In this document: one piece after another, positions 24,481-37,465 of the stretch
How the letters are laid out: each line of letters opens with the position of its first letter
Numbering within the stretch: the stretch's first letter is position 1
Notes under the pieces: model-generated
Told to the model about the DNA's origin: nothing
Database searches by the model: none
What the model saw: the letters and a program-made list of their open reading frames with translations, nothing else
Assembly (NCBI RefSeq): GCF_018283645.1
Contig: NZ_JAGSXH010000059.1
Coordinates: 1 to 38,122 of the forward strand
From: Actinocrinis puniceicyclus
GTDB taxonomy: Bacteria; Actinomycetota; Actinomycetes; Streptomycetales; Catenulisporaceae
Direction: 5' to 3'
Length of the DNA stretch: 38,122 nt
Made by a program: the position numbers and the translations under genes

Positions 24481-24643
24481 CGGCAGCGGCGACCCGTGGA
24501 CCTGCACCTTGTGAAGCGTGGGCCGGCGGCGGTGGTCTGGGCGGCAACGCGGCACTAGCGTGCGCGAAAACATTCTGCGATTCGGCGAGAAATTTTCCAT
24601 CCACGCGGAGATTCACCGAGCCGTGCCACCTTCGGAGGTTCCC

Positions 24644-26521
24644 ATGCGAAGACTTTCCTTTCCGCGCCGCGGCCGCCTGGTCGCTCTGGCCATGGCCATG
24701 CCGCTCGTCGCCGTGGGCGCGGTTGCCGTGACCGTCGTGCCCGCCTCCGCGGCGACGAGCGCGTCAGTGTCCGTCAACGCGGGCCAGTTGCTGGCGAAGA
24801 TCCCGGCCACCGGCGTCGGGACGAACGTCGCGGTCTATGACGGCGCCATGAACAGCTCGGCCAGCGCTGGGCTGCTGAACACCGGCGGCTTCCGCGTCGT
24901 GCGCTACCCGGGCGGCTCGTACTCGGACGGCTACCACTGGCAGACGAACACGATGCAGGGCGGCGGATACGTCGCGCCGAACACCGACTTCGACTCCTTC
25001 ATGGGCACCGTCAAGTCCGCCGGCGCGCAGGCGATCATCACCGCGAACTACGGCTCCGGCACGCCGCAGGAGGCCGCGGCGTGGGTTCAGTACGCGAACG
25101 TGACCAAGGGCTACGGGGTGAAGTACTGGGAGATCGGCAACGAGGTCTACGGCAACGGCGAGTACGGCGCCAGCTGGGAGATCGACACCCACACCAGCCA
25201 CAGCGCCACGACCTACGCGAACAACCTGCTGCAGTACGTCTCCGCGATGAAGGCGGTCGACCCGACGATCAAGATCGGCGCTGTGCTGACCACGCCGGGA
25301 TCCTGGCCGGACGCAATCGTCGGGTCCGGCGACTCGATGGACTGGAACCACACGGTCCTGTCCATCGCCGGTCCGAAGATCGACTTCGTGATCGTGCACC
25401 ACTACCCGAACAGCACCGGCGAGGCGAACCTGCTGGGCAAGCCGCAGGCCGAGATCCCGGGCATGGCCAACACACTGCACTCGCTGATCAACCAGTACAC
25501 CGGGAGCAACGCGCCGAACGTCGGCATCGCGGTGACCGAGGCGAACGCGAACGCTTACAAGGACACCGCGCCCAACGGCCTGTTCGCCCCGGACGAGTAC
25601 CTGACCTGGATGGAACACGGCGCGTTCAACCTCGACTGGTGGGACATGCGCAACGGCACCGACTGCAGCGCGGTGACCACGGTGGACGGTGCGACCGATT
25701 ACAACGACGGCGGCATGATCTCCAGCGGTGCGTCCTGCGAACCGCCCGCGCAGACCCCGTTCCCGCCGTACTACGGTACCGAGATGATCACCAAGCTCGG
25801 CTCGGCGGGTGACTCGCTGGTTCAGACGAGCAGCTCCACCTCGCTGATCTCCGCGCACGCGGTCAAGCGCGCCGACGGCGACGTGGATGTGATGCTCATC
25901 AACAAGGACCCGAACAACGCCGCCACGGTCTCGCTGTCCTACAGCGGGTTCACCCCCTCCTCGGCTACGCCGACGGTGTATTCGTACTTGAAGAACGCCA
26001 CCGCCATCGGTTCGGCCGCCGCCGGCAGCGCCGGCAGCCAGACCGTGCCCGCCTACTCGATCGTGGTGGTGCAGTTGCATCCGGGCGGCGGCGGCAGTCC
26101 CAGCCCCTCGGCCTCGTCGTCCTCGTCGCCGTCCTCGTCGCCGAGCGCGTCCCCGTCGTCCTCGCCGAGCGCCTCGGCCAGCCCCACAGGCGGCACCGGC
26201 TCGGGCACCTGCAAGGTCAGCTACGTCAAGAACGAGTGGCAGGGCGGGATGACCGCGAACCTCACCGTGACCAACACCGGCGGCGCGAGTGTCAACGGGT
26301 GGACTCTCGGCTTCACCTTCCCCGGCGACACCAGGGTGACCAACGCCTGGAACGCCAACGTGACGCAGAACGGCTCGGCCGTCACCGCGGCGAACCTGTC
26401 CTACGACGCCACCATCCCCCCCGGCGGGAACGTCTCGTTCGGCTTCCAGGGCACGTGGACCGGCAACGACGCCAACCCCTCCGCGTTCACGCTCAACGGC
26501 GCGAGCTGCGCGCTGGGCTGA
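24644..26521 (+). CDS. Secreted clan GH-A glycosidase paralogue with CBM2
   Basis: The 625-residue exported enzyme is a paralogue of the divergent neighbour. It has a signal peptide at 1-36 (cleavage after ASA) and a catalytic region at ~40-480 with Glu167 in WEIGNEVYGNG (probable acid/base) and Glu299 in AVTEAN (probable nucleophile). A Ser/Pro/Ala linker (~484-515, SPSASSSSSPSSSPSASPSS) leads to a CBM2 at ~521-625 with Cys at both ends. Unlike the neighbour it lacks Fn3 and uses this flexible linker. ATG 24644 follows CGGAGG and starts the signal peptide; upstream in-frame starts add no signal-like sequence. It probably attacks hemicellulose such as arabinoxylan; the substrate is not proven. 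Confidence 0.87.
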   Translation: MRRLSFPRRGRLVALAMAMPLVAVGAVAVTVVPASAATSASVSVNAGQLLAKIPATGVGTNVAVYDGAMNSSASAGLLNTGGFRVVRYPGGSYSDGYHWQTNTMQGGGYVAPNTDFDSFMGTVKSAGAQAIITANYGSGTPQEAAAWVQYANVTKGYGVKYWEIGNEVYGNGEYGASWEIDTHTSHSATTYANNLLQYVSAMKAVDPTIKIGAVLTTPGSWPDAIVGSGDSMDWNHTVLSIAGPKIDFVIVHHYPNSTGEANLLGKPQAEIPGMANTLHSLINQYTGSNAPNVGIAVTEANANAYKDTAPNGLFAPDEYLTWMEHGAFNLDWWDMRNGTDCSAVTTVDGATDYNDGGMISSGASCEPPAQTPFPPYYGTEMITKLGSAGDSLVQTSSSTSLISAHAVKRADGDVDVMLINKDPNNAATVSLSYSGFTPSSATPTVYSYLKNATAIGSAAAGSAGSQTVPAYSIVVVQLHPGGGGSPSPSASSSSSPSSSPSASPSSSPSASASPTGGTGSGTCKVSYVKNEWQGGMTANLTVTNTGGASVNGWTLGFTFPGDTRVTNAWNANVTQNGSAVTAANLSYDATIPPGGNVSFGFQGTWTGNDANPSAFTLNGASCALG

Positions 26522-27898: not shown

Positions 27899-29638
27899 TC
27901 AGTTCCCGCAGAAGGGCAGGCCCGGTTCCGGCTGGTCGTCCGAGCCGCCGGCCAGGTCGACCGCGGACACCCAGCCGAAGGTGCCCTGCGCCGACTCCGT
28001 CCACGCCCACCAGTGGTTGTGGAAGCCGTTGAACGAGTACTGCGCGCCGGAGGACTGGCAGTAGAACGGCTGGGGGCCCGGGGCGATGGCGCCGGCCCGG
28101 TCCAGCGTCCCGGCCTGGAACACCGGGGCGCCGTCGGCGCGGCCGACGGTGCATTCGAACTGCCCGGGAGCCAGCTTCGCGCAACCGCCCGTGCCCGCGG
28201 CGGCCGCGGTGTAGCGCAGATACGGCGTGATCGGCGCGTTCGGGGTGACGTTCGACGTCGCCCCCTGATTCACGGCCTTGGCCGACGCCGTCGGCTTCGT
28301 CGTCGCGCCGCCGCCCGCGCCCGCGGCCATGTTCGTCGCGGCCGCCGACGATGTCGCGGCGCTCGCGCCGGCGCCCGTACCTGTGCCAGCGGGTTTCGCG
28401 GCCTGCCCGTTGCCGGGCATCGCGCCGGCGGCGGTGCGGGTGACGTGCAGCGCGTCCGCGCTGGGCATCGCGCCGATCACGGTTCCGGCACTGCTCATCG
28501 CCTGGCGGCTGAGCACGACCCCGAGAGCCAGCCCGGCGACCACACTGACCGCGAGGAAGACGGCCGGGGCGTGCCGCTTGCGCCCGGTCCTGACGAACGC
28601 GGCGTCGCGACCGTTCTTCGCCGAGCCGCGTCCGGCGCGCTCGCCGCCGCGGCCCGCGCCCGGATCGGCGTCCTGCTCCAGGTCCAGTTCGACGAACGGC
28701 ACCGGTTGCGTCGCCGTGGTCGCGCCGAACAACTCGTCGAGCGTCTGCTCGCGTGTTATATCAGCATTCGGATAAGCCATCGCCAGCGACTCCAGCCGCC
28801 CGGCCACGATCGCCGCCGAGGCGGGCCGCGCCGCCGGGTCCTTCGCCAGCAGCCACAGCACCAGTTGGTCGATCTCCGGCGCCACCTCCGGGCGCCAGCG
28901 GCGCACCGGCGTCGGCTCGTCGTGCAGGTGCCGGTGCAGGATGGTCAGACTGTCGTCGGCAGGGAACGGCGGCAGGCCGGTCAGCAGGACGTAGAGGACG
29001 CAGCCGACCGAGTAGAGGTCCGAGCGCACGTCCGCCTGAGCTCCCATGATCCGCTCAGGGGCGGTATACGCCGGGGTGCCCAGGCTGTCCGCGCCTGTGC
29101 GCGTCAGCCGTTCGGTGAAACCGGCGCCCTGCAGGAACCCGGCGATGCCGAAGTCGAGCACCTTCACCACGCCGTCGTGGTTGACCATGATGTTGGCCGG
29201 CTTGATGTCCCGGTGCAGCACCGCGGCCTCGTGTGCGGCCTCCAGCGCGCGGCTGATCTGCACCCCGATGGCCAGCGCCGCGCCGATCGGCATCGGGCGC
29301 CCGCCGCGCAGTTCGTCCAGGTTGCACCCGGTGACCAGTTCCATCACGACGAACTGGTGGCGCTGGTACTCGCCCTGGTCGTAGACCGCGACCACGTTCG
29401 GGTGGGTGATGCGCGCCACCGCGATCGCCTCGCGGGTGAAGCGGTCCGCGGTCTGCGGGTCGGCGCTCGGGTCGCCGAGCACCAGCTTGACCGCCACGTC
29501 GCGGCCGAGCCGCTCGTCGCGTGCCGCCCAGACCTCACCGGTGGCCCCGAGGCCGAGCCAGCGCGCGAGCCGGTAGCGGCCCGCGATCAGGGCTCCTTCG
29601 TCGATCTGCTGGGAGTAGTGGTGTTCGGTGCTGGTCAC
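27899..29638 (-). CDS. Transmembrane Ser/Thr protein kinase (PknB-like) with an extracellular domain
   Basis: A 579-residue receptor kinase with its catalytic domain at ~22-285: Gly loop GLGATGEV, Lys51 in VAVKLV, Glu70, HRDIKPAN (142-149), DFG 162-164 and GTPAYTAPER. After a charged juxtamembrane region comes one helix (~358-376). The outer part has an Ala/Thr/Gly-rich stalk (~385-465) and a compact domain at ~470-579 with Cys486, Cys496, Cys527 and Cys577 and Trp-rich NHWWAWTESAQGTFGWVSAV, resembling an SH3-like ligand module, not PASTA repeats. GTG 29638 is close to a GGGGGGA stretch. It lies downstream of the propeller gene on the same strand, separated by a hairpin. The ligand is unknown. 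Confidence 0.92.
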   Translation of the reverse strand: MTSTEHHYSQQIDEGALIAGRYRLARWLGLGATGEVWAARDERLGRDVAVKLVLGDPSADPQTADRFTREAIAVARITHPNVVAVYDQGEYQRHQFVVMELVTGCNLDELRGGRPMPIGAALAIGVQISRALEAAHEAAVLHRDIKPANIMVNHDGVVKVLDFGIAGFLQGAGFTERLTRTGADSLGTPAYTAPERIMGAQADVRSDLYSVGCVLYVLLTGLPPFPADDSLTILHRHLHDEPTPVRRWRPEVAPEIDQLVLWLLAKDPAARPASAAIVAGRLESLAMAYPNADITREQTLDELFGATTATQPVPFVELDLEQDADPGAGRGGERAGRGSAKNGRDAAFVRTGRKRHAPAVFLAVSVVAGLALGVVLSRQAMSSAGTVIGAMPSADALHVTRTAAGAMPGNGQAAKPAGTGTGAGASAATSSAAATNMAAGAGGGATTKPTASAKAVNQGATSNVTPNAPITPYLRYTAAAAGTGGCAKLAPGQFECTVGRADGAPVFQAGTLDRAGAIAPGPQPFYCQSSGAQYSFNGFHNHWWAWTESAQGTFGWVSAVDLAGGSDDQPEPGLPFCGN

Positions 29639-29670
29639 AGGTCCCCCCTGTTCGGGCTCGCTGCGGATGC

Positions 29671-29713
29671 GTGGCGTGGCGTGGCGTGACGGGGCTCGGG
29701 GCTCGGGGCTCGG
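29671..29713. repeat. GTGGC and GGGGCTC tandem repeats
   Basis: Three GTGGC units and a GTGAC variant (29671-29690) are followed by three near-identical GGGGCTC-type units (29691-29713). They fill part of the 145-bp gap (29639-29783) upstream of the kinase gene. Confidence 0.7.
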
Positions 29714-29714
29714 G

Positions 29715-29749
29715 CGTCCCGCGCCGGCGTGCGGCGCCGGCGCGGGACG
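29715..29749. terminator. Perfect 14-bp hairpin after the propeller gene
   Basis: CGTCCCGCGCCGGC (29715-29728) pairs perfectly with 29736-29749 across a 7-nt loop, about 35 bp beyond the stop of the minus-strand gene at 29784. It should limit transcription into the kinase gene downstream. Confidence 0.75.
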
Positions 29750-29783
29750 GTTGTGGGTGTTTCGGATGGACCGGCAGGGGCGG

Positions 29784-31016
29784 TCAGCCGCCGTAGTTGT
29801 AGCCGCCCCAGTAGCTGCCCTTGCCGCCGCCGCGCAGCGGGCCGGTGGCGCTGAGGTTGTTCTGCAGGTCGTTGACGTAGTACAGCCACTTGCCGTCCCA
29901 GCTGGGGGCCAGGCCGAACAGCGCGCCCGCGCCCGGCATCGACCCGGCGACCGCGGTGGTGTCCAGCGCCTTGACCAGCGCGACCTGGCCGCGCAGGCTG
30001 ATCGCGATCAGGTTGCCGTTCTCGCCGTTGACGGTCAGCAGCAGCCCGCCGAACGAGGTGAGCCCGAGCGGCATCTTCAGCAGCCCGGCCTCGGCCAGGG
30101 TGAATCCGAGCCCTGCGCTGTTGTGCCGGGTGGTCGCCCAGTTGATCTGCGCGATCCGGTTCGCCAGGGTGTCGGCGACGAACAGCGTGTTGCCCACGAG
30201 CGTCACGCCGGTCGGACCCTGCACGAAGCCGTCCTGGCTGACCATCTCCGGGAAGCCGGAGCCCACGATCACCGCGGTGTCGACGCGGAAGCGCTGCTGG
30301 GTCACGTCCAGCTTGAGCCGGACCACGGTGCCCTTGTTGACCTGCTGCCCGACCCGGCCGTTCACGCCGTTGAGGACGTTGCTGACGAACAGCTGGACGT
30401 CGTCGCCGTGTTCCCAGGCCGACATGCCCCACGGGCCGTTGATCCCGTGGCCGGTGATCACGGCCTTGGCGTGCCCGAGGCTGTTGAGCACGATCAGGCA
30501 GCCGGACTTCGCGGTCTTGTACGTGCCGTCGGTGGTCGGCAGGCTGCCGACCACGACCCAGCCGTTCTTGAGCACCACGAGGGCGGTGGTCAGGCCGATG
30601 CCGCCGGGACAGGTGGAGGGCAGCCGGTTGGGTGTGAGCCAGGCGAACAGCGTCTGCCTTCCGGTCCGCGGGTCGACCTCGACGATGCTGCTGCCGGTGC
30701 CGTTGAGGTTCGCCTTGTTGTTGTAGTTGCTCACCAGCACGTCGCCGGCCATCAGGTGTCCGACGCTGCGCGGCACGACCGCGACGCCGTACGGGTTGAC
30801 GTCCCCGTTCGACGGGACCGTGGAGGACACCGTCTTGAGGGTGGTGGTGCCGGTGGCGATCTGCGGTGACCATCGGGCGGAGAATGCCGTGTTGGACACC
30901 GAGGAGTTGTTCCCGTGTCTCCACGGCGAGGCGTAAGCGGTCGTCAGTGCCCCGGCGGCCAGGGCGAGCGCCGCGGCCGACCCGATGCCGATCCGGACCT
31001 TCGTTCTGCTCAACAT
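29784..31016 (-). CDS. Secreted NHL-like beta-propeller protein of unknown function
   Basis: A protein of about 410 residues with a signal peptide (basic start, GIGSAAALALAAGALTTAYA). The mature part has repeated strand patterns of an NHL/SMP-30-like propeller: GDVNPYGVAVVPRS, LMAGDVLVSNYNNKAN, GPWGMSAWEHGDDVQLFVSN, GPTGVTLVGNTLFVADTLAN, and LLKMPLGLTSFGGLLLTVNG. The tail is Gly/Tyr/Trp-rich (GKGSYWGGYNYGG). No catalytic residues are evident. Two starts are possible: GTG 31028 lies only 1 nt after AAGGAG, whereas ATG 31016 is 13 nt from it; the latter is used here with modest confidence. The kinase lies downstream, and an anchored and a His-rich exported protein diverge upstream. Confidence 0.78.
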   Translation of the reverse strand: MLSRTKVRIGIGSAAALALAAGALTTAYASPWRHGNNSSVSNTAFSARWSPQIATGTTTLKTVSSTVPSNGDVNPYGVAVVPRSVGHLMAGDVLVSNYNNKANLNGTGSSIVEVDPRTGRQTLFAWLTPNRLPSTCPGGIGLTTALVVLKNGWVVVGSLPTTDGTYKTAKSGCLIVLNSLGHAKAVITGHGINGPWGMSAWEHGDDVQLFVSNVLNGVNGRVGQQVNKGTVVRLKLDVTQQRFRVDTAVIVGSGFPEMVSQDGFVQGPTGVTLVGNTLFVADTLANRIAQINWATTRHNSAGLGFTLAEAGLLKMPLGLTSFGGLLLTVNGENGNLIAISLRGQVALVKALDTTAVAGSMPGAGALFGLAPSWDGKWLYYVNDLQNNLSATGPLRGGGKGSYWGGYNYGG

Positions 31017-31161
31017 GTCGCTGAACACACTCCTTGAGTTCTTGTTGCTTCAGGCTTTGTTCGGCGTGGTGCCGAGGGCGAGGCTGCGGACGGTTATCGG
31101 CCAAGCACGCGGGAACCGCGGATCCGGTTCAACCCGATGGGCCGCGGGCGTATTACGAAAC

Positions 31162-31238
31162 GCTGACGCGCCCTGACGCGCCTGCACCCTGACGCGCCCT
31201 GACGCGCCTGCACCCTGACGCGCCTGCACCCTGACGTA
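31162..31238. repeat. CCTGACGCGC / CTGCAC tandem array in a divergent region
   Basis: Units of CCTGACGCGC, with or without CTGCAC, alternate six times; the 16-bp form CCTGACGCGCCTGCAC appears three times. The array lies in the 387-bp region 31017-31403 between divergent secreted-protein genes, so it may space their promoters. Apart from it, the region shows a CCGATCGG palindrome near 31357 but no clear promoter boxes. Confidence 0.8.
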
Positions 31239-31403
31239 GCCGCATATGAGAACTCGTGGAACAGCTGGTGCGCTGTCAGCCGGCCGACGCGGTCGGCGGC
31301 CGGATTGAACCGCTCTCGAAAACCTTGCGTGCTAGCGGTCACGCGTGCGCCGAGCCGATCGGCCCGGCGCCTCCGACAGCTACGGAAAGGGCGTGATGAG
31401 CAC

Positions 31404-32183
31404 GTGCGCCGTCCTCTAGCAGCCCGCTTCTGCGCTCTTGCCGTCCCGTTGGGGGCGGCCGGCGCGCTGCTGCTGTCCGTCGGACCCGCTCACGCGGGCA
31501 CCGGCTACGGCCAGCTGATCGTCAACCCGGGCACGGCCGCGCCCGGACAGAGTGTCAGCGTCCTGGGGACCTGCCCGAACAACGGCCAGGGCTTCGGCGG
31601 CGTGAAATCCGCGGCCTTCGTCGGCGGTTCCGCCTCGGTGACGCAGAGCTCGATCAACTTCTCCGGCTCGGCGACCATCGCGCCGGGTACGTCCGGCACC
31701 TACACGGTCTCCGCGGACTGCGGTTCGGGCAGCCCGTCGGTGACGATCACGGTCTCCGGTTCGGCCGTCGCGCCCCCGCCCTCGACGCAGCCGGCCGATC
31801 CGACATCCCAGGCCGCGGCGCCGCCGCCCGCGACGACGCCGGCCTCGGCGCCCGCGATGCCGCGGCCCGCGGCCGGCGGCGGCGCGGCGGGCGGTGGCAT
31901 GAGCCCGGCCAATGCGCGGCCCGCCGCTCCCGCGGCGAGTGGCGCGGCGACGGCGACGGGTTCGACGGCAGCGCAGGCGATGTCCCCGATGCCGGGTACG
32001 ACCGCGGCCGGGAACGGTCCGGTGACCAGCACGGGCATCGTGCGGGTCGGGCTGGCCGGGTCGAGCCGTTCCGCACTGACCACAGCTGGAGCCGCGGCCA
32101 TCGCCGTGGCCCTCGCGCTTGCCGGCGGGGTCGGATTCCTGGTGATCCGCCGTCGACGCAACACATCGGGTACGCACTTCTAA
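31404..32183 (+). CDS. Exported membrane-anchored Pro/Ala-rich protein
   Basis: A 259-residue protein: signal peptide 1-31 (cleavage after AHA), then an Ig-like beta domain (~32-118; GYGQLIVNPGTAAPGQSVSV, GTSGTYTVSADCGSGSPSVTITV) with two Cys. A Pro/Ala/Gly-rich stalk (~120-215) leads to a C-terminal membrane helix (AAAIAVALALAGGVGFLVI) and the tail RRRRNTSGTHF. No LPxTG sortase motif is visible, so the helix is the anchor. GTG 31404 is chosen since it begins the signal peptide; an upstream frame to 31305 is not signal-like. It is the first gene of an operon with the next, which starts 9 bp after its TAA. Function unknown. Confidence 0.75.
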   Translation: MRRPLAARFCALAVPLGAAGALLLSVGPAHAGTGYGQLIVNPGTAAPGQSVSVLGTCPNNGQGFGGVKSAAFVGGSASVTQSSINFSGSATIAPGTSGTYTVSADCGSGSPSVTITVSGSAVAPPPSTQPADPTSQAAAPPPATTPASAPAMPRPAAGGGAAGGGMSPANARPAAPAASGAATATGSTAAQAMSPMPGTTAAGNGPVTSTGIVRVGLAGSSRSALTTAGAAAIAVALALAGGVGFLVIRRRRNTSGTHF

Positions 32184-32192
32184 GGAGCGAGA

Positions 32193-34295
32193 GTGTCCGC
32201 ATCCAGTTCGCACGGTCGGCCGCGGGGTCAGGAACCCGGCCAGCCGCTACGCAGGTCGTCAAGGGTCGAGTCGACCCGGGCGCGCCGGGAGCGTCGCAGT
32301 TGGCGGACTCGCAAGGTCGGCACGATTTTCGCCGCCATGCCGGTCGTGGTGATCGCCGCTGTAGGCATAGCCATGGCCTCGCCCCTGCATCATCATCATC
32401 ACAACAACAACAACAACGCGGGCGGCGCGGTGGCGTGTGCGAACCCTGCCACGGGCGTCTCCGGGTCGACCGCGGCGGGCGCAGCCGGTGCGGCGAACGG
32501 GACCGGCGGCGCTGCCGGCACGGGTACGAGCACGATCGCCCAGGGCGGCAACTACGGCGGTTACGGCGGTTACGGTGGCAACACCAAGCACCACCACAAC
32601 CACGCCACGGCCTCCGCCACGACCACGTCGAGCATGGCGGCCGGAACCGGCATGAACACCGGCACGGGTGCGGGCACGGCCACCGGGACCACGACAGGCA
32701 TGACGACCGGTAACGGCGGCGCCATGGCGACGACCTCCGCCGCCGCGGGCATTGGCACTGGCACCGGCACTAACACTGGCACCGCGACCAGCACGGCCGC
32801 GACGACGACTTCCGCCGCCGCCGCCGCGTCGCCGTCGGCGACCAAGGCGTGTGCGACCGCCACCGCCACCGCCACCGCCGCCGCCGCTGCCACCACGTCC
32901 GCCACCGCCGCCGCCGCTGCCACCACGTCCGCCGCCGCCGCAGCCGCGGCGACTCCGAACCCGAACTGCACGCTGGTCGTGCCGCCCAACCCGCTCACGG
33001 CGCAGGGCCTGGCGACCCCGTACCAGTTCACCGCGACCAACGCGGCGATGGGCCCGTGCCACGAGGCGAACATCAACCAGAGCGCCTTCGTCCAGGCCAC
33101 CGTCTACGACCCGGCCACCGGCGCGCTGTCGATCTACGATCCGCTGGTGGTCGACATGGGCACGCAGCCGGCCGCCGCACCGGTCGTGCCGACGCTCCCG
33201 GCGAACGCCGTCGTCGGCATCTGGTTCGGCTTCAACGCCACCAACCTCACCTTGCAGGACTCGAACGGCAGCCTGGCCGCGGGCAAGTGCGTCAACGGCA
33301 TGGGCGCCGGCGACGTGTTCGGCCAGTTCGCGTACTGCAACTCCCCGGCGTTCTTCGCGGCGGTCAACCAGGGCATCCAGGCGGGGATGGTCACCGTGCC
33401 GAACCCCGGCACCGCGACCGACGGCCAGCCGTGCGAGACGCTGCGCGACTTCGCCCTGATCGACCAGGACCAGAGCGACAACGTCACCACCGCGTACCTC
33501 GCGAACGGCAACGGCCAGATCGCGCAGAAGACCGCGACCACCGCGGCGGCGATGGCCGGCGCGACCACCATCTCCAACCCGAGTGACAACGGCCTGCTGG
33601 ACGCCTTCGTGGACCCGGCTCTCGGCTGCGCGCCGTGGACCGCCCCGGACCTGGCGAACAACAACACTCCGACCACGTCGCTGGGCCTCGACGAACTCCA
33701 GGCCAACGCCTTCGCGCACACTCCGGTGGCGCTGGTCCCGGCCAACGACCCGATGACCCTGGTCAACGGCAACATGAGCAACACCAAGACCAACCTGTAC
33801 CGCGCGGGCGTGGACCAGCCGCCGCTGCCGGCCGGTGAGAGCCCGGCTGTCTACTGCGGCGACATGGACAGCATCCAGAGCGCTCGGCTCCAGCAGGACG
33901 TCAACCTCCTGATCAACCAGACGTCCCCGAACGCGGCGGCGGCCAGCAATCTGTTCACCTTCCTCGGGATGCGGCTGCAGCAGTCCTTCGGCAACCTCAA
34001 CTGCCAGAACTTCGGCCTGAAGAACCCGGTGACCACGCTCGGCATGAACGGCAACGTGGTGGTCTCGGTGGTCTTCACCCAGATGACCAACGCGGTCACC
34101 GCCGGCGCGGGCAACCCGGCGCAGAAGTGCCTCAACACGGCCGGGGCCACGGCACAGATGAACTGCGCGCTCACCGCGGTCGGCGTTGCGGCCAACGGCA
34201 ACGGCCAGGCGATGGCCCCGATGCCGATGCCGACCCAGACCGCCACCCCGCGTCCCTCGGGCGACATGCGCAAGCACAGCGGCCACCACTGGTAA
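32193..34295 (+). CDS. Large exported His/Asn-run protein with a low-complexity stalk
   Basis: The 700-residue protein has a long Arg-rich leader (1-41), a membrane segment (~43-62) that is a signal peptide or an anchor, then HHHHHNNNNN directly after it. Residues ~76-255 are Ala/Thr/Gly low complexity with GGNYGGYGGYGGN and KHHHNH. A structured part (~256-660) has several Cys and no family I know (CTLVVPPNPLTAQGLATPYQF, AVVGIWFGFNATNLTLQ, YCGDMDSIQSARLQQDVNLL). The C-terminus is KHSGHHW. His at three places suggests metal binding, but this is a guess. AAGGAG five nt before GTG 32193 fixes the start. It is translated right after the anchored Pro-rich protein, so the two may form one surface structure. 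Confidence 0.8.
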   Translation: MSASSSHGRPRGQEPGQPLRRSSRVESTRARRERRSWRTRKVGTIFAAMPVVVIAAVGIAMASPLHHHHHNNNNNAGGAVACANPATGVSGSTAAGAAGAANGTGGAAGTGTSTIAQGGNYGGYGGYGGNTKHHHNHATASATTTSSMAAGTGMNTGTGAGTATGTTTGMTTGNGGAMATTSAAAGIGTGTGTNTGTATSTAATTTSAAAAASPSATKACATATATATAAAAATTSATAAAAATTSAAAAAAATPNPNCTLVVPPNPLTAQGLATPYQFTATNAAMGPCHEANINQSAFVQATVYDPATGALSIYDPLVVDMGTQPAAAPVVPTLPANAVVGIWFGFNATNLTLQDSNGSLAAGKCVNGMGAGDVFGQFAYCNSPAFFAAVNQGIQAGMVTVPNPGTATDGQPCETLRDFALIDQDQSDNVTTAYLANGNGQIAQKTATTAAAMAGATTISNPSDNGLLDAFVDPALGCAPWTAPDLANNNTPTTSLGLDELQANAFAHTPVALVPANDPMTLVNGNMSNTKTNLYRAGVDQPPLPAGESPAVYCGDMDSIQSARLQQDVNLLINQTSPNAAAASNLFTFLGMRLQQSFGNLNCQNFGLKNPVTTLGMNGNVVVSVVFTQMTNAVTAGAGNPAQKCLNTAGATAQMNCALTAVGVAANGNGQAMAPMPMPTQTATPRPSGDMRKHSGHHW
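32874..32933 (+). repeat. 30-bp perfect tandem duplication inside the Ala/Thr stalk
   Basis: Two identical 30-bp units (32874-32903 and 32904-32933) begin ACCGCCGCCGCCGCTGCC and end ACCACGTCCGCC. They encode an Ala/Thr/Ser-rich decapeptide twice, in frame. Flanking GCCACC hexamers show the same slippage. Confidence 0.9.
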
Positions 34296-34388
34296 ACCCT
34301 GGGCCACCGGCGATGCGGATTAAGGGGACTGATGACGCGGGCCAGATGGTGACAGGGAGCGGATGAACACGGCAGAGACGCGCCGCTG

Positions 34389-34408
34389 AGGACTGGGAAC
34401 GCAGTCCT
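34389..34408. terminator. Small 7-bp hairpin after the His-run protein gene
   Basis: AGGACTG (34389-34395), loop GGAACG and CAGTCCT (34402-34408) lie in the 225-bp convergent gap 34296-34520, just before the stronger hairpin at 34419. It may be a first, weaker terminator stem. Confidence 0.5.
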
Positions 34409-34418
34409 GTGAAGCACC

Positions 34419-34456
34419 CGGCCCGCGTACCCTGGAAAGTCAGGGTACGCGGGCCG
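34419..34456. terminator. Perfect 16-bp hairpin between convergent genes
   Basis: CGGCCCGCGTACCCTG (34419-34434), loop GAAAGT, and its exact complement at 34441-34456 form a strong stem. It lies between the His-run protein gene and the convergent methionine aminopeptidase and can end both. Confidence 0.85.
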
Positions 34457-34520
34457 CTCGCATGCGCCGGATCTCGCCAGCGGCCCATTGTCGTCGGCCG
34501 GGACGGGCGCGGGCACGACC

Positions 34521-35303
34521 TCACGAGTGCGCGTGCTCGGGCAGAGTGAGGATCTCGGCGCCGTCGCGGGTGATGGCGATCGTGTGCTCACTGTGTGCCG
34601 TCCGGCAGCCCGTCGCGCTTCGCAGCGTCCACCCGTCGTCGTCGGTGACGAGCTCGGCGGTGTCCGCCATGACCCACGGCTCCAGCGCCAGCAGCAGCCC
34701 GGGACGCAGTCGGTAGCCGCGGCCGGGCCGCCCGGTGTTCGAGACGTGCGGGTCCTGATGCATCGTCGATCCGACGCCGTGGCCTCCGAACTCGGTGTTG
34801 ACCGGATACCCCGCTTCGCGCAGGGTCGAGCCGATGGCATGGGAGATGTCGCCGATGCGAGCCCCGGGCCCGGCTGCGGCGATCCCCGCGCGCAGCGCCC
34901 GCTCGGTCGCGCTGATCATCGCGACGCTCTGCGGCGGCTTCGACTCGCCCACGATGAAGCTGATGGCGCTGTCCGCGACGATTCCGTCCGTTGAGACGGC
35001 GAGGTCGAGCGACAGCAGATCGCCGTCGGCGAGCGTGTAGTCGTGAGGCAGTCCGTGCAGCACGGCGTCGTTGACGGACGTGCAGATGTAGTGACCGAAC
35101 GGGCCGCGCCCGAAGGACGGCGCGTAGTCGACGTAGCAGGACACCGCCCCGGCCTCGACGATCATGGTCTCGGCCCATCGGTCGATGTCCAGCAGGTTGG
35201 TACCCACTACACTGCGGCTCTTGAGGGTCTGCAGAATGCGCGCGACCAGGGCACCTGCCTGCTTGGCTCGGTGCAGTTCGGTCGGGCTCAGGATCTCGAT
35301 CAT
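34521..35303 (-). CDS. map: Type I methionine aminopeptidase
   Basis: The 260-residue cytoplasmic metalloenzyme removes the initiator Met from nascent proteins. It has the pita-bread fold with ligands and catalytic His in order: His83 (VLHGLP), Asp100 (LSLDLAV), Asp111 (VADSA), His175 (GGHGVG), Glu208 (LEPW) and Glu239 (HSEHT). The length is usual for a type Ia enzyme without an N-terminal extension. ATG 35303 gives MIEILSPTEL, the family's normal start; an in-frame ATG at 35342 would add 13 residues and reach into the operator-like repeats. It is divergent from a small XRE regulator, which may control it; actinomycetes often carry several such paralogues. Confidence 0.92.
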   Translation of the reverse strand: MIEILSPTELHRAKQAGALVARILQTLKSRSVVGTNLLDIDRWAETMIVEAGAVSCYVDYAPSFGRGPFGHYICTSVNDAVLHGLPHDYTLADGDLLSLDLAVSTDGIVADSAISFIVGESKPPQSVAMISATERALRAGIAAAGPGARIGDISHAIGSTLREAGYPVNTEFGGHGVGSTMHQDPHVSNTGRPGRGYRLRPGLLLALEPWVMADTAELVTDDDGWTLRSATGCRTAHSEHTIAITRDGAEILTLPEHAHS

Positions 35304-35879: not shown

Positions 35880-36830
35880 TCAGTGCACGGGCACCTCTAG
35901 CAGCGTCTTGCCGGTGGCGGTCACCACCTGGAACTTCGTGATCTCGTCGGCCTGCATCGCCACTCCGCCCGGAATGGTCGCGGTGCCGCTCGACGGCGCC
36001 CACCAGGTACTGGCCACGACGCGGTTGCCCTTGCCGTCGAGCGCCAGCAGCATGCAGTCGTCACCGGGAGGGACGTTGTGCATCGTCACCTGCACCCAGC
36101 TGCCCCACTCGGTCGCGTGGTACTGGACCGTGCCGGTGATGCCCATCGCCGTGTTGCTTCCATCGAGGGTCTTGCCGAAAGCCGACGGGGCCTTCGGACC
36201 CGCCGTCCCGGCGTACACGCCGATCACCGCGACCGCGGCCAGCACGCCGCCGGCCGCCGCGATCGACACGCGGCGCACGAGCGTGCCCGACCAGAGCCCG
36301 GCCAGGAAGCCGGACTTCTGATGCCCGCCGGAGCGCTGCCGCGCGGAACGGCGCCGCCGCGCCCGGCCCGAGTGACCGGAGCCGGCCGCCGCGGGGGAGA
36401 AGGAGTGATCCGAGCCGGCGGAGGCGTCGGCGAACCCGCCCGCGCCGCGCGCCGACGCGCCGGCGGCCGGGCCGTCCGGCACCGCCAGGCCCGAGGCCTC
36501 GCGAGCCGCGGCCTTCTCCAGCAGCCGCGTGAGCAGTTCGCCGTCCGGGGGCACCGGACCGGCGGCCATCTCGGTTTCGGTGATGCGGGCCAGGATCCCC
36601 GGGACGGCGGCCATCTCCCGGTACTCGGCGCGGCACGCGGCACAGTCCACCAGGTGCATGCGCACGTGGTCGGCCTCGGCCGGGTCCAGCGCGCCGAGCG
36701 CGTACGAGCCGAGCGAGATCCGCTGGTCCGGCGAGCAGGAGTCCGCCGGCGGCGGGTATCCGGGCGGGTAGCCGGGAGGTCCGGTCCTTCCCCGGCCGGA
36801 CCCGGCGCCCGCGTGCGAGCGATCGGTCAC
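35880..36830 (-). CDS. Membrane anti-sigma factor with ZAS zinc domain (RskA-like)
   Basis: The 316-residue anti-sigma factor has a Pro/Gly-rich start and a ZAS domain at ~33-80 with zinc ligands His55, His59, Cys63 and Cys66 (HVRMHLVDCAACRAEY). A polar Ala/Gly/Ser linker with RARRRRSARQR precedes one membrane helix (~188-208). The outer domain (~210-316) is RskA-like: WGSWVQVTMHNVPPGDDCMLLALDGKGNRVV and the closing GKTLLEVPVH. It should hold the sigma factor at the membrane until regulated proteolysis frees it. GTG 36830 overlaps the sigma stop as GTGA. This pairing is typical of ECF sigma factors of the SigK/SigL type. Confidence 0.92.
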   Translation of the reverse strand: MTDRSHAGAGSGRGRTGPPGYPPGYPPPADSCSPDQRISLGSYALGALDPAEADHVRMHLVDCAACRAEYREMAAVPGILARITETEMAAGPVPPDGELLTRLLEKAAAREASGLAVPDGPAAGASARGAGGFADASAGSDHSFSPAAAGSGHSGRARRRRSARQRSGGHQKSGFLAGLWSGTLVRRVSIAAAGGVLAAVAVIGVYAGTAGPKAPSAFGKTLDGSNTAMGITGTVQYHATEWGSWVQVTMHNVPPGDDCMLLALDGKGNRVVASTWWAPSSGTATIPGGVAMQADEITKFQVVTATGKTLLEVPVH

Positions 36831-37465
36831 AGAGTGACCCCCCGTTCCTCACAGGCGAGCCGCAGGGCTCTCAATGCGTAGTAGGTGCGGGACTTCACGG
36901 TCCCGGGAGGTATACCGAGCGTCTTCGCGGCCTGCGCCACCGACGCTCCATGGTAGTAGGTTTCCACGAGCACGGCCCGGTGCTCCGGGGAGAGCACCGA
37001 GACCACCTCGGCCAGTTCCCACGCATCCAGACTGCGGTCGTACGGGTCGGCCGAGGTGTCGGCCAGCGACTGCGCCCAGTCCTCCCCCAGGCGGCCCTCG
37101 CCGACCTCGGCCGGACGGGTCTTGCGCGCCCTGATCGCGTCGATGACCAGGTTGCGCGCGACCGTGAACAGCCAGTTGCGCGGCGAGCCGCGGGACGGAT
37201 CCATCGCCTCCGGGTGTGTCCACGCCCGCAGCAGGGTCTCCTGGACCACATCCTCGGCTGACGAGCGGTCCCCGTGCAGCAGCCGCAGCGCGTATCCGAG
37301 CAGCGGTCCGGCATGCTCGGCGTAGAGCGCCCGCAGCCGCTCCTCGCTGGTGCGCGCCGGTTTTCGGGACTGATCCGCCTTGGTTGGCAGGGTTCTGCCA
37401 AACGACCGGTTCAACAGTTCCACTCCGAGTGGGTAGGGCTTCGGGAGCGTAGCGTTATCTGCCAC
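36827..37465 (-). CDS. ECF-family RNA polymerase sigma factor
   Basis: The 212-residue sigma factor has an N-terminal extension of about 40 residues, sigma region 2 at ~42-112 (LYAEHAGPLLGYALRLLHG, AEDVVQETLLRAW, NWLFTVARNLVIDAIRARK), and region 4 at ~150-203 (LSPEHRAVLVETYYHG, VAQAAKTLGIPPGTVKSRTY). The YYHG form and the RskA-like partner suggest the ECF group of SigK/SigL. GTG 37465 overlaps the upstream gene by 11 bp; GTG 37423 (VELLNRSFG) is an alternative start that would avoid the overlap. The anti-sigma gene follows with a GTGA overlap. The stimulus is unknown, though an envelope signal is likely. Confidence 0.92.
   Translation of the reverse strand: MADNATLPKPYPLGVELLNRSFGRTLPTKADQSRKPARTSEERLRALYAEHAGPLLGYALRLLHGDRSSAEDVVQETLLRAWTHPEAMDPSRGSPRNWLFTVARNLVIDAIRARKTRPAEVGEGRLGEDWAQSLADTSADPYDRSLDAWELAEVVSVLSPEHRAVLVETYYHGASVAQAAKTLGIPPGTVKSRTYYALRALRLACEERGVTL

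Follow-up and report, generated by a model that had tools for sequence, protein, structure and literature searches.

An exported-looking protein of Actinocrinis puniceicyclus with a conserved eight-cysteine domain that recurs in Actinomycetota and Ktedonobacteria

The stretch of DNA analysed in this study (the window) is one whole contig of 38,122 nucleotides (G000:C385) from the 6.77 Mb genome of Actinocrinis puniceicyclus. It carries three neighbouring genes for exported- or anchored-looking proteins, namely a beta-propeller (29784–31028, minus strand), a stalk protein (31404–32183, plus strand), and a large protein (32193–34295, plus strand). The original prediction had described these genes as a possible surface module. 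Coordinates and translations confirmed that the three open reading frames (ORFs) are real, and all motifs pointed out earlier are present (YWGGYNYGG at the propeller C-terminus; HHHHHNNNNN, three YGG units, KHHHNH, and KHSGHHW in the large protein). Export was judged by reading the sequences. The main subject of this report is a folded domain within the large protein.

The large protein comprises 700 amino acids: a basic N-terminus, a hydrophobic export segment, an Ala/Thr/Gly-rich linker, the folded domain, and a short tail. Its GTG start is supported by similarity to the Actinospica orthologue (genome G001) from residue 1 onward and by a GGAG just upstream. The hydrophobic signal or anchor segment (32313–32381, plus strand), as read from the translation, follows basic residues. 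This arrangement is common among the relatives, as a hydrophobic 18-mer was found within 200 residues before the domain in 70 of 76 and was directly preceded by at least two Lys or Arg residues in 68. The family tail is variable, being basic or rich in His or Trp in some members, and ending in a transmembrane (TM)-like segment in a few (5/76, and by reading also the own-genome paralogue L004).

The domain spans 376 amino acids (32958–34085, plus strand). In an alignment of 77 rows (A3), eight Cys residues are invariant, together with D169, D171, S173, D174, and N175 of one loop, N207, S209, D210, E246, K277, and R282. The invariant polar set present in 77/77 rows consists of R163, D169, D171, D174, D210, E246, K277, R282, and R339. 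Left out of A3 were L029, L034, and L035 (same loci as L019, L020, and L021), L044 and L047 (odd in length or frame), L064 (incomplete), and L074, L083, and L084 (taken as near copies); alignment A2 lacks L028 as well as L025, for which there was no gene call. The eight Cys residues are predicted to form four disulfides, and the DQDQSDN loop is a predicted site for calcium or another divalent cation. With the 77 rows, AlphaFold2 returned a mixed alpha/beta domain with a predicted local distance difference test score (pLDDT) of 94.3 and a predicted template modelling score (pTM) of 0.93; with 6 rows the pLDDT was 45.7.

Searches with the domain gave no known family. Among 77 domain members, Pfam returned only three unrelated families at E 0.026–0.098, each in one member, and NCBIfam gave no match for the window's large protein. 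The best hit of the PDB sequence search had an E of 0.96. In fold searches, the best results were an E of 0.75 with Foldseek, a Z of 4.0 over 71 residues with VIA-align, and an E of 0.95 against a viral library. Such a null for a predicted model is proof neither of a novel fold nor of one that differs from known folds; the fold may be novel. A search for the domain on plasmids gave no match, the DQDQSDN motif was not found in a search of paper texts, and the titles and abstract openings covered by a literature search held no described family matching the domain. The large protein thus looks like a member of an undescribed family of exported proteins, new to Pfam and PDB.

The sequence runs that had suggested a function in the first place lie outside this conserved part. 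The HHHHHNNNNN run (residues 66–75; 32388–32417, plus strand) is written with four CAT, one CAC, and five AAC codons, and the Actinospica orthologue has HHH and no Asn run. The YGGYGGYGG run (residues 121–129; 32553–32579, plus strand) is underlain by a tandem array of TACGGCGGT at 32553–32575, occurs in 1/83 family members, and is missing from the Actinospica large protein; tandem arrays also underlie the linker. It had been proposed that shared Tyr-Gly-Gly motifs mediate contact or co-assembly with the propeller and that the His-rich stretches bind metal. Given a YGG run in a single member and a His/Asn run made of repeated codons, neither proposal found support, and both were rejected as family traits; no His column of the domain is invariant (best 46/77).

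The C-terminal KHSGHHW tail (34272–34292, plus strand) is a different case, as SGHHW also ends the Actinospica orthologue, and Dictyobacter and Streptacidiphilus have look-alikes (RRHHRW and KHRHHMRW). Compared with 1,014 other gene calls from the same loci, the 83 family members more often end in Trp (13/83 vs. 23/1,014), carry at least four Lys, Arg, or His in the last 12 residues (26/83 vs. 102/1,014), or at least two His there (13/83 vs. 47/1,014). Because the rows are related, these counts are suggestive only. Since SGHHW is common to both orthologues and 13/83 tails have at least two His, the tail may still play a local role. A basic or His-rich stretch ending in a last-residue Trp recurs in both phyla in which the family was found (window, L037, L046, L054, and L093).

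A second copy of the domain lies on contig C222 of the same genome (53% identity). In the genome collection, 131 relatives were found, and the 80 kept are, by record title, 50 from Actinomycetota and 30 from Chloroflexota. Among the cultured hosts in Actinomycetota are Actinospica, Actinoallomurus, Streptacidiphilus, Kitasatospora, Streptomyces, Amycolatopsis, Kutzneria, Frankia, and Actinoplanes, all of which are mycelial. In Chloroflexota, the cultured hosts belong to the Ktedonobacteria (Dictyobacter, Ktedonobacter, Thermogemmatispora, and relatives), and both phyla also contribute metagenome-assembled genomes (MAGs), one of them titled only Chloroflexi. Of 47 genomes in the class that includes Dictyobacter arantiisoli (G351), 31 have the domain, with up to five matches each, some of which are pieces of one gene. 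An even draw of the same phylum gave 12/151 genomes, eleven of the twelve being in the class list. One paper tabulates nine Ktedonobacteria strains with aerial mycelia that bear exospores or sporangia, and reports that the first described species was initially taken for an actinomycete (PMC6497799). A divergent member, L122 (G513:C213, 3233–6548), with 46–49% identity to its eight best A3 matches, was kept outside the tree described below. By reading, a YVTN-like propeller gene precedes it, with no match in the other 83 loci. Many of the named hosts (Actinospica, Streptacidiphilus, Actinoallomurus, and the Ktedonobacteria) are organisms of acid soils, and acidity instead of hyphae could explain the distribution.

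In a maximum-likelihood tree of the 77 rows, 27 Chloroflexota rows were separated from all 44 grouped Actinomycetota rows by a branch of length 0.083 with 99/95 support. A midpoint root groups the Chloroflexota rows with 11 Streptomycetaceae rows; the root branch (38 vs. 39 rows) has 97/95 support and a length of about 0.09, and the median end branch is 0.13. The tree was rejected as a proof of transfer in itself, as the split is clean by phylum and the adjacency comes from the midpoint root only. A clean phylum split fits an old split followed by many losses as well as a single inter-phylum transfer. Identity to the window domain is about 50–60% for most rows of both phyla. As these phyla are very distant and the sequences nevertheless alike, and as the distribution in actinomycetes is patchy, we lean toward transfer, which is only suggested.

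The stalk protein (259 amino acids) consists of a signal-peptide-like start, an Ig-like-looking segment of about 90 amino acids with two Cys residues, a Pro/Ala/Thr stalk, a TM-like segment, and an RRRR tail. The GTG at 31404 is more likely its start than the listed TTG at 31305, because it directly precedes the signal-peptide-like segment. No Pfam or NCBIfam match was found at E ≤ 1, and no LPxTG-type sortase motif is visible in the translation. Relatives of the large gene, the propeller, and the stalk protein were sought in 60 genomes, own included, scoring the 40 best first-look candidates per genome for the stalk protein. A near full-length stalk relative was found in the Actinospica genome G001 only, and G010 gave a weak 94-residue match. 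The Ig-like segment gave a strong match in G001 and was also matched, at E 8.6e-18 to 4.3e-4, in 5 of 25 other genomes. A gap of 9 bp separates the stalk gene from the large gene (22 bp in G001), and the two likely form an operon with the stalk gene first, which supports the earlier proposal that the large protein is made together with a membrane-anchored Pro-rich partner.

The propeller gene is divergent from this putative operon, and its product resembles NHL/SMP-30 propellers. All six aligned homologues reach an E of at most 1 against Pfam NHL (best 2.1e-6), and four match the SGL model (best 1.1e-5), while the window propeller by itself stays below the NHL cut-off (16.9 vs. 20 bits). Its profile also matches solved propellers (Pizza7H, E 2e-12; TRIM71 NHL, 2.4e-10). 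The claim that the three proteins lack known families hence fails for the propeller and stands, in the libraries searched, for the large protein, the stalk protein being matchless as well. The tail of the propeller is Tyr/Gly-rich in the window and Ser/Tyr/Gly-rich in G001; the other four aligned homologues have neither. The subfamily was found in 7 of 13 other genomes of the window's family and in 3 of 296 evenly drawn genomes of the phylum (own plus two weaker matches); for this draw of 296 and the other broad draws of Actinomycetota, the six best first-look candidates per genome were scored. It therefore appears to be a rare, exported-looking subfamily in the phylum. The intergenic stretch between propeller and stalk gene holds a GC-rich tandem array (31163–31236) with CTGACGCGCC-type units of 10, 16, and 26 bp. 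A scan of 29500–34600 for sigma-70 promoters and terminators found none. Synonymous and nonsynonymous divergence (dS/dN) from the G001 orthologues was 0.54/0.31 for the propeller, 0.74/0.51 for the stalk protein, and 0.41/0.16 for the large domain, so that dS exceeds dN throughout, an excess that is clear in the large domain and weak in the stalk protein.

The trio recurs with the same order and orientations at G001:C199, with other flanking genes on both sides. Beyond that, the genes proved largely independent in related genomes, the outcome named in the original prediction as speaking against a module. In G003 and G005, which share the Actinospica genus label of G001, the propeller lies about 1.9 Mb from the large gene in the former and on another contig in the latter, and in genus g3 the propeller was found in 4/10 genomes and the large gene in 0/10. 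Among 23 other domain-bearing genomes (reached via 24 of the 80 loci, two of them in one genome), a strong propeller match was found in three and a weak partial one in two. Searching six-frame ORFs of at least 120 amino acids at 84 loci with the propeller profile gave matches beside the domain only in the window and in L019, the G001 trio locus. On these results, the trio is an association in two genera and not a general module.

The trio adjoins a PknB-type Ser/Thr kinase gene (27899–29638, minus strand), the product of which has a TM-like segment by reading. Its adjacency in the window, noted in the original prediction, is real; a functional link is not supported, since no homologue of this kinase lies beside the trio in G001. 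A kinase-coupled signalling module was accordingly rejected, the kinase matches at other loci being distant (27–38% identity). Nor did an all-against-all comparison of 1,076 gene calls at 83 loci, made with an imperfect caller based on GC content at third codon positions, reveal a widely shared gene partner of the domain. The next shared gene clusters near the domain cover 17 and 12 loci and, by reading, one has a response-regulator-like start and one is ABC ATPase-like. As the caller found the domain gene itself in 62/83 loci, lower-GC loci were missed.

A pair of genes for an extracytoplasmic function (ECF) sigma factor and its anti-sigma factor (35880–37465, minus strand) starts 1.6 kb downstream of the large gene. 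The anti-sigma gene (35880–36830) matches zf-HC2 above and RskA_N below the Pfam cut-off, and the sigma gene (36827–37465) matches Sigma70 regions 2 and 4. At all three further loci of the window's family (L020, L021, and L022), a single small gene separates the domain gene from an anti-sigma homologue; sigma homologues follow this pattern at two of them, and the third is truncated at the contig end. Linkage to the sigma pair is at least as well supported as linkage of the trio. In G001, the trio copy and the sigma-linked copy of the large gene are two separate paralogues. At L021 (5626–7344) and L022 (8249–10042), a protein of about 570–600 amino acids adjoins the domain gene, with 84% mutual identity and a partial match (37–41% over 86–100 amino acids) to a CBM2-bearing glycosidase-like gene of the window (24518–26521; glycosidase match below the Pfam cut-off). 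Of 11 stretches scanned for an ECF-promoter pattern, two gave an isolated match, one lying upstream of the propeller in G001 and one upstream of the sigma gene in G003.

Our main reading is that the domain is a disulfide-braced, possibly calcium-binding head displayed on the hyphae or spores of mycelial Actinomycetota and Ktedonobacteria, to which we assign a probability of about 0.45. The large protein would leave the cell by Sec export, the linker together with a tail or anchor would hold the domain at the wall on the hyphal or spore surface, and the displayed domain would bind or process an extracellular, probably polymeric, ligand. Stalk protein and propeller would be optional local accessories in the window and in G001 and not parts of a general machine.

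Several observations weigh against surface display as a common trait of mycelial bacteria. Six of 76 rows miss the export-segment threshold within 200 residues, three of them having a segment further upstream, and many family tails are neither basic nor anchored. The PDB sequence and fold searches found no solved relative, so that an activity cannot be read off. Within the class of Dictyobacter arantiisoli, 16/47 genomes gave no match, and several matches come from MAGs of unknown shape. The domain was found in the own genome only among 296 evenly drawn Actinomycetota, and in 8 of 293 genomes of the order, own included. With this patchy occurrence and the absence from all ten genomes of genus g3, which belongs to the window's family, the protein is not a core hyphal coat. 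Finally, one Chloroflexota member (G513) falls outside the class list, and by reading it departs in part from the invariant loop and the SDN motif, with S173 and S209 lost.

The alternatives are not all exclusive, and the probabilities given to them do not sum to one. The strongest rival is an extracellular enzyme acting on soil polymers, with the invariant Asp/Glu/Lys/Arg set as active site and surface retention as an incidental feature. That polar set seems more than a structural coat needs, and the CBM2-bearing glycosidase-like gene lies in the same window; however, neither an enzyme family nor a solved enzyme fold was matched, and display is suggested by the length of the linkers and by tails that are basic or anchored. 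We consider the enzyme rather unlikely. That fast-evolving exported proteins of low complexity became neighbours by chance, with no common role and with motifs that arose by replication slippage, is doubtful, though by a smaller degree. Chance would account for the arrays and repeated codons and for the independence of the genes in most genomes, but not readily for a trio kept across two genera or for a folded domain strongly conserved over two phyla.

The large gene could also be an output of the ECF sigma/anti-sigma pair, for instance in an envelope-stress regulon, with the trio as a positional by-product. The linkage in the window's family argues for this. Conversely, a search of the 18 kb surrounding the G001 trio did not find the pair, nor was it found at loci outside the window's family except for two weak sigma matches (L069 and L075), and the crude ECF-promoter pattern lay upstream of no large or stalk gene tested. 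Such a regulatory origin is, in our estimate, unlikely. Least probable is the assembly of propeller, stalk, and large protein into one surface complex as first proposed, since the order, orientations, and short gap kept at G001:C199, where no flanking gene matches a window gene, are confined to two genomes and opposed by the unlinked genes, the rare propeller co-occurrence, the scattered Ig-like segment, and the missing YGG motif described above.

A bolder version of the display reading holds that the domain has a new fold and is the calcium-braced, four-disulfide head of a transferable toolkit for mycelial life, passed between actinomycetes and the unrelated Ktedonobacteria. We regard this combination as unlikely. 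Filamentous fungi might possibly have secreted counterparts; if so, the toolkit would extend across kingdoms.

Some known systems share features with the locus. Chaplins, the hydrophobic coat proteins of aerial hyphae in mycelial actinomycetes, are likewise exported by mycelial, sporulating bacteria, whereas the large protein has a big globular domain with eight Cys residues that is also present in Chloroflexota; at E ≤ 1, Pfam matched no chaplin domain in either the large or the stalk protein. Membrane-anchored stalk proteins on the surface of actinomycetes combine a signal peptide, a small beta domain, a Pro/Ala/Thr stalk, a TM segment, and a basic tail. The product of 31404–32183 appears to have this architecture, and the large-protein paralogue L004 ends in a stalk and TM-like segment, although the window stalk protein differs in having neither a visible LPxTG motif nor a Pfam match. 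The window propeller is related by its profile to NHL/SMP-30 (SGL) propellers (PF01436 and PF08450), from which it is set apart by its apparent export, its rarity, its score below the Pfam cut-off, and its Tyr/Gly-rich tail. The sigma pair resembles RskA-type anti-sigma/ECF sigma pairs by Pfam and has a putative regulatory link to the domain gene.

Mycelial growth with spores occurs in actinomycetes and in Ktedonobacteria, which belong to separate phyla, and the exported-looking domain is common to both. It looks like a structural family absent from Pfam and PDB. With this domain, the question whether unrelated mycelial bacteria have surface machinery in common, and by which route they came to share it, can be put to a concrete protein. 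It may also serve as a lead on how the cell surface is built or used by soil bacteria of mould-like growth in two phyla.

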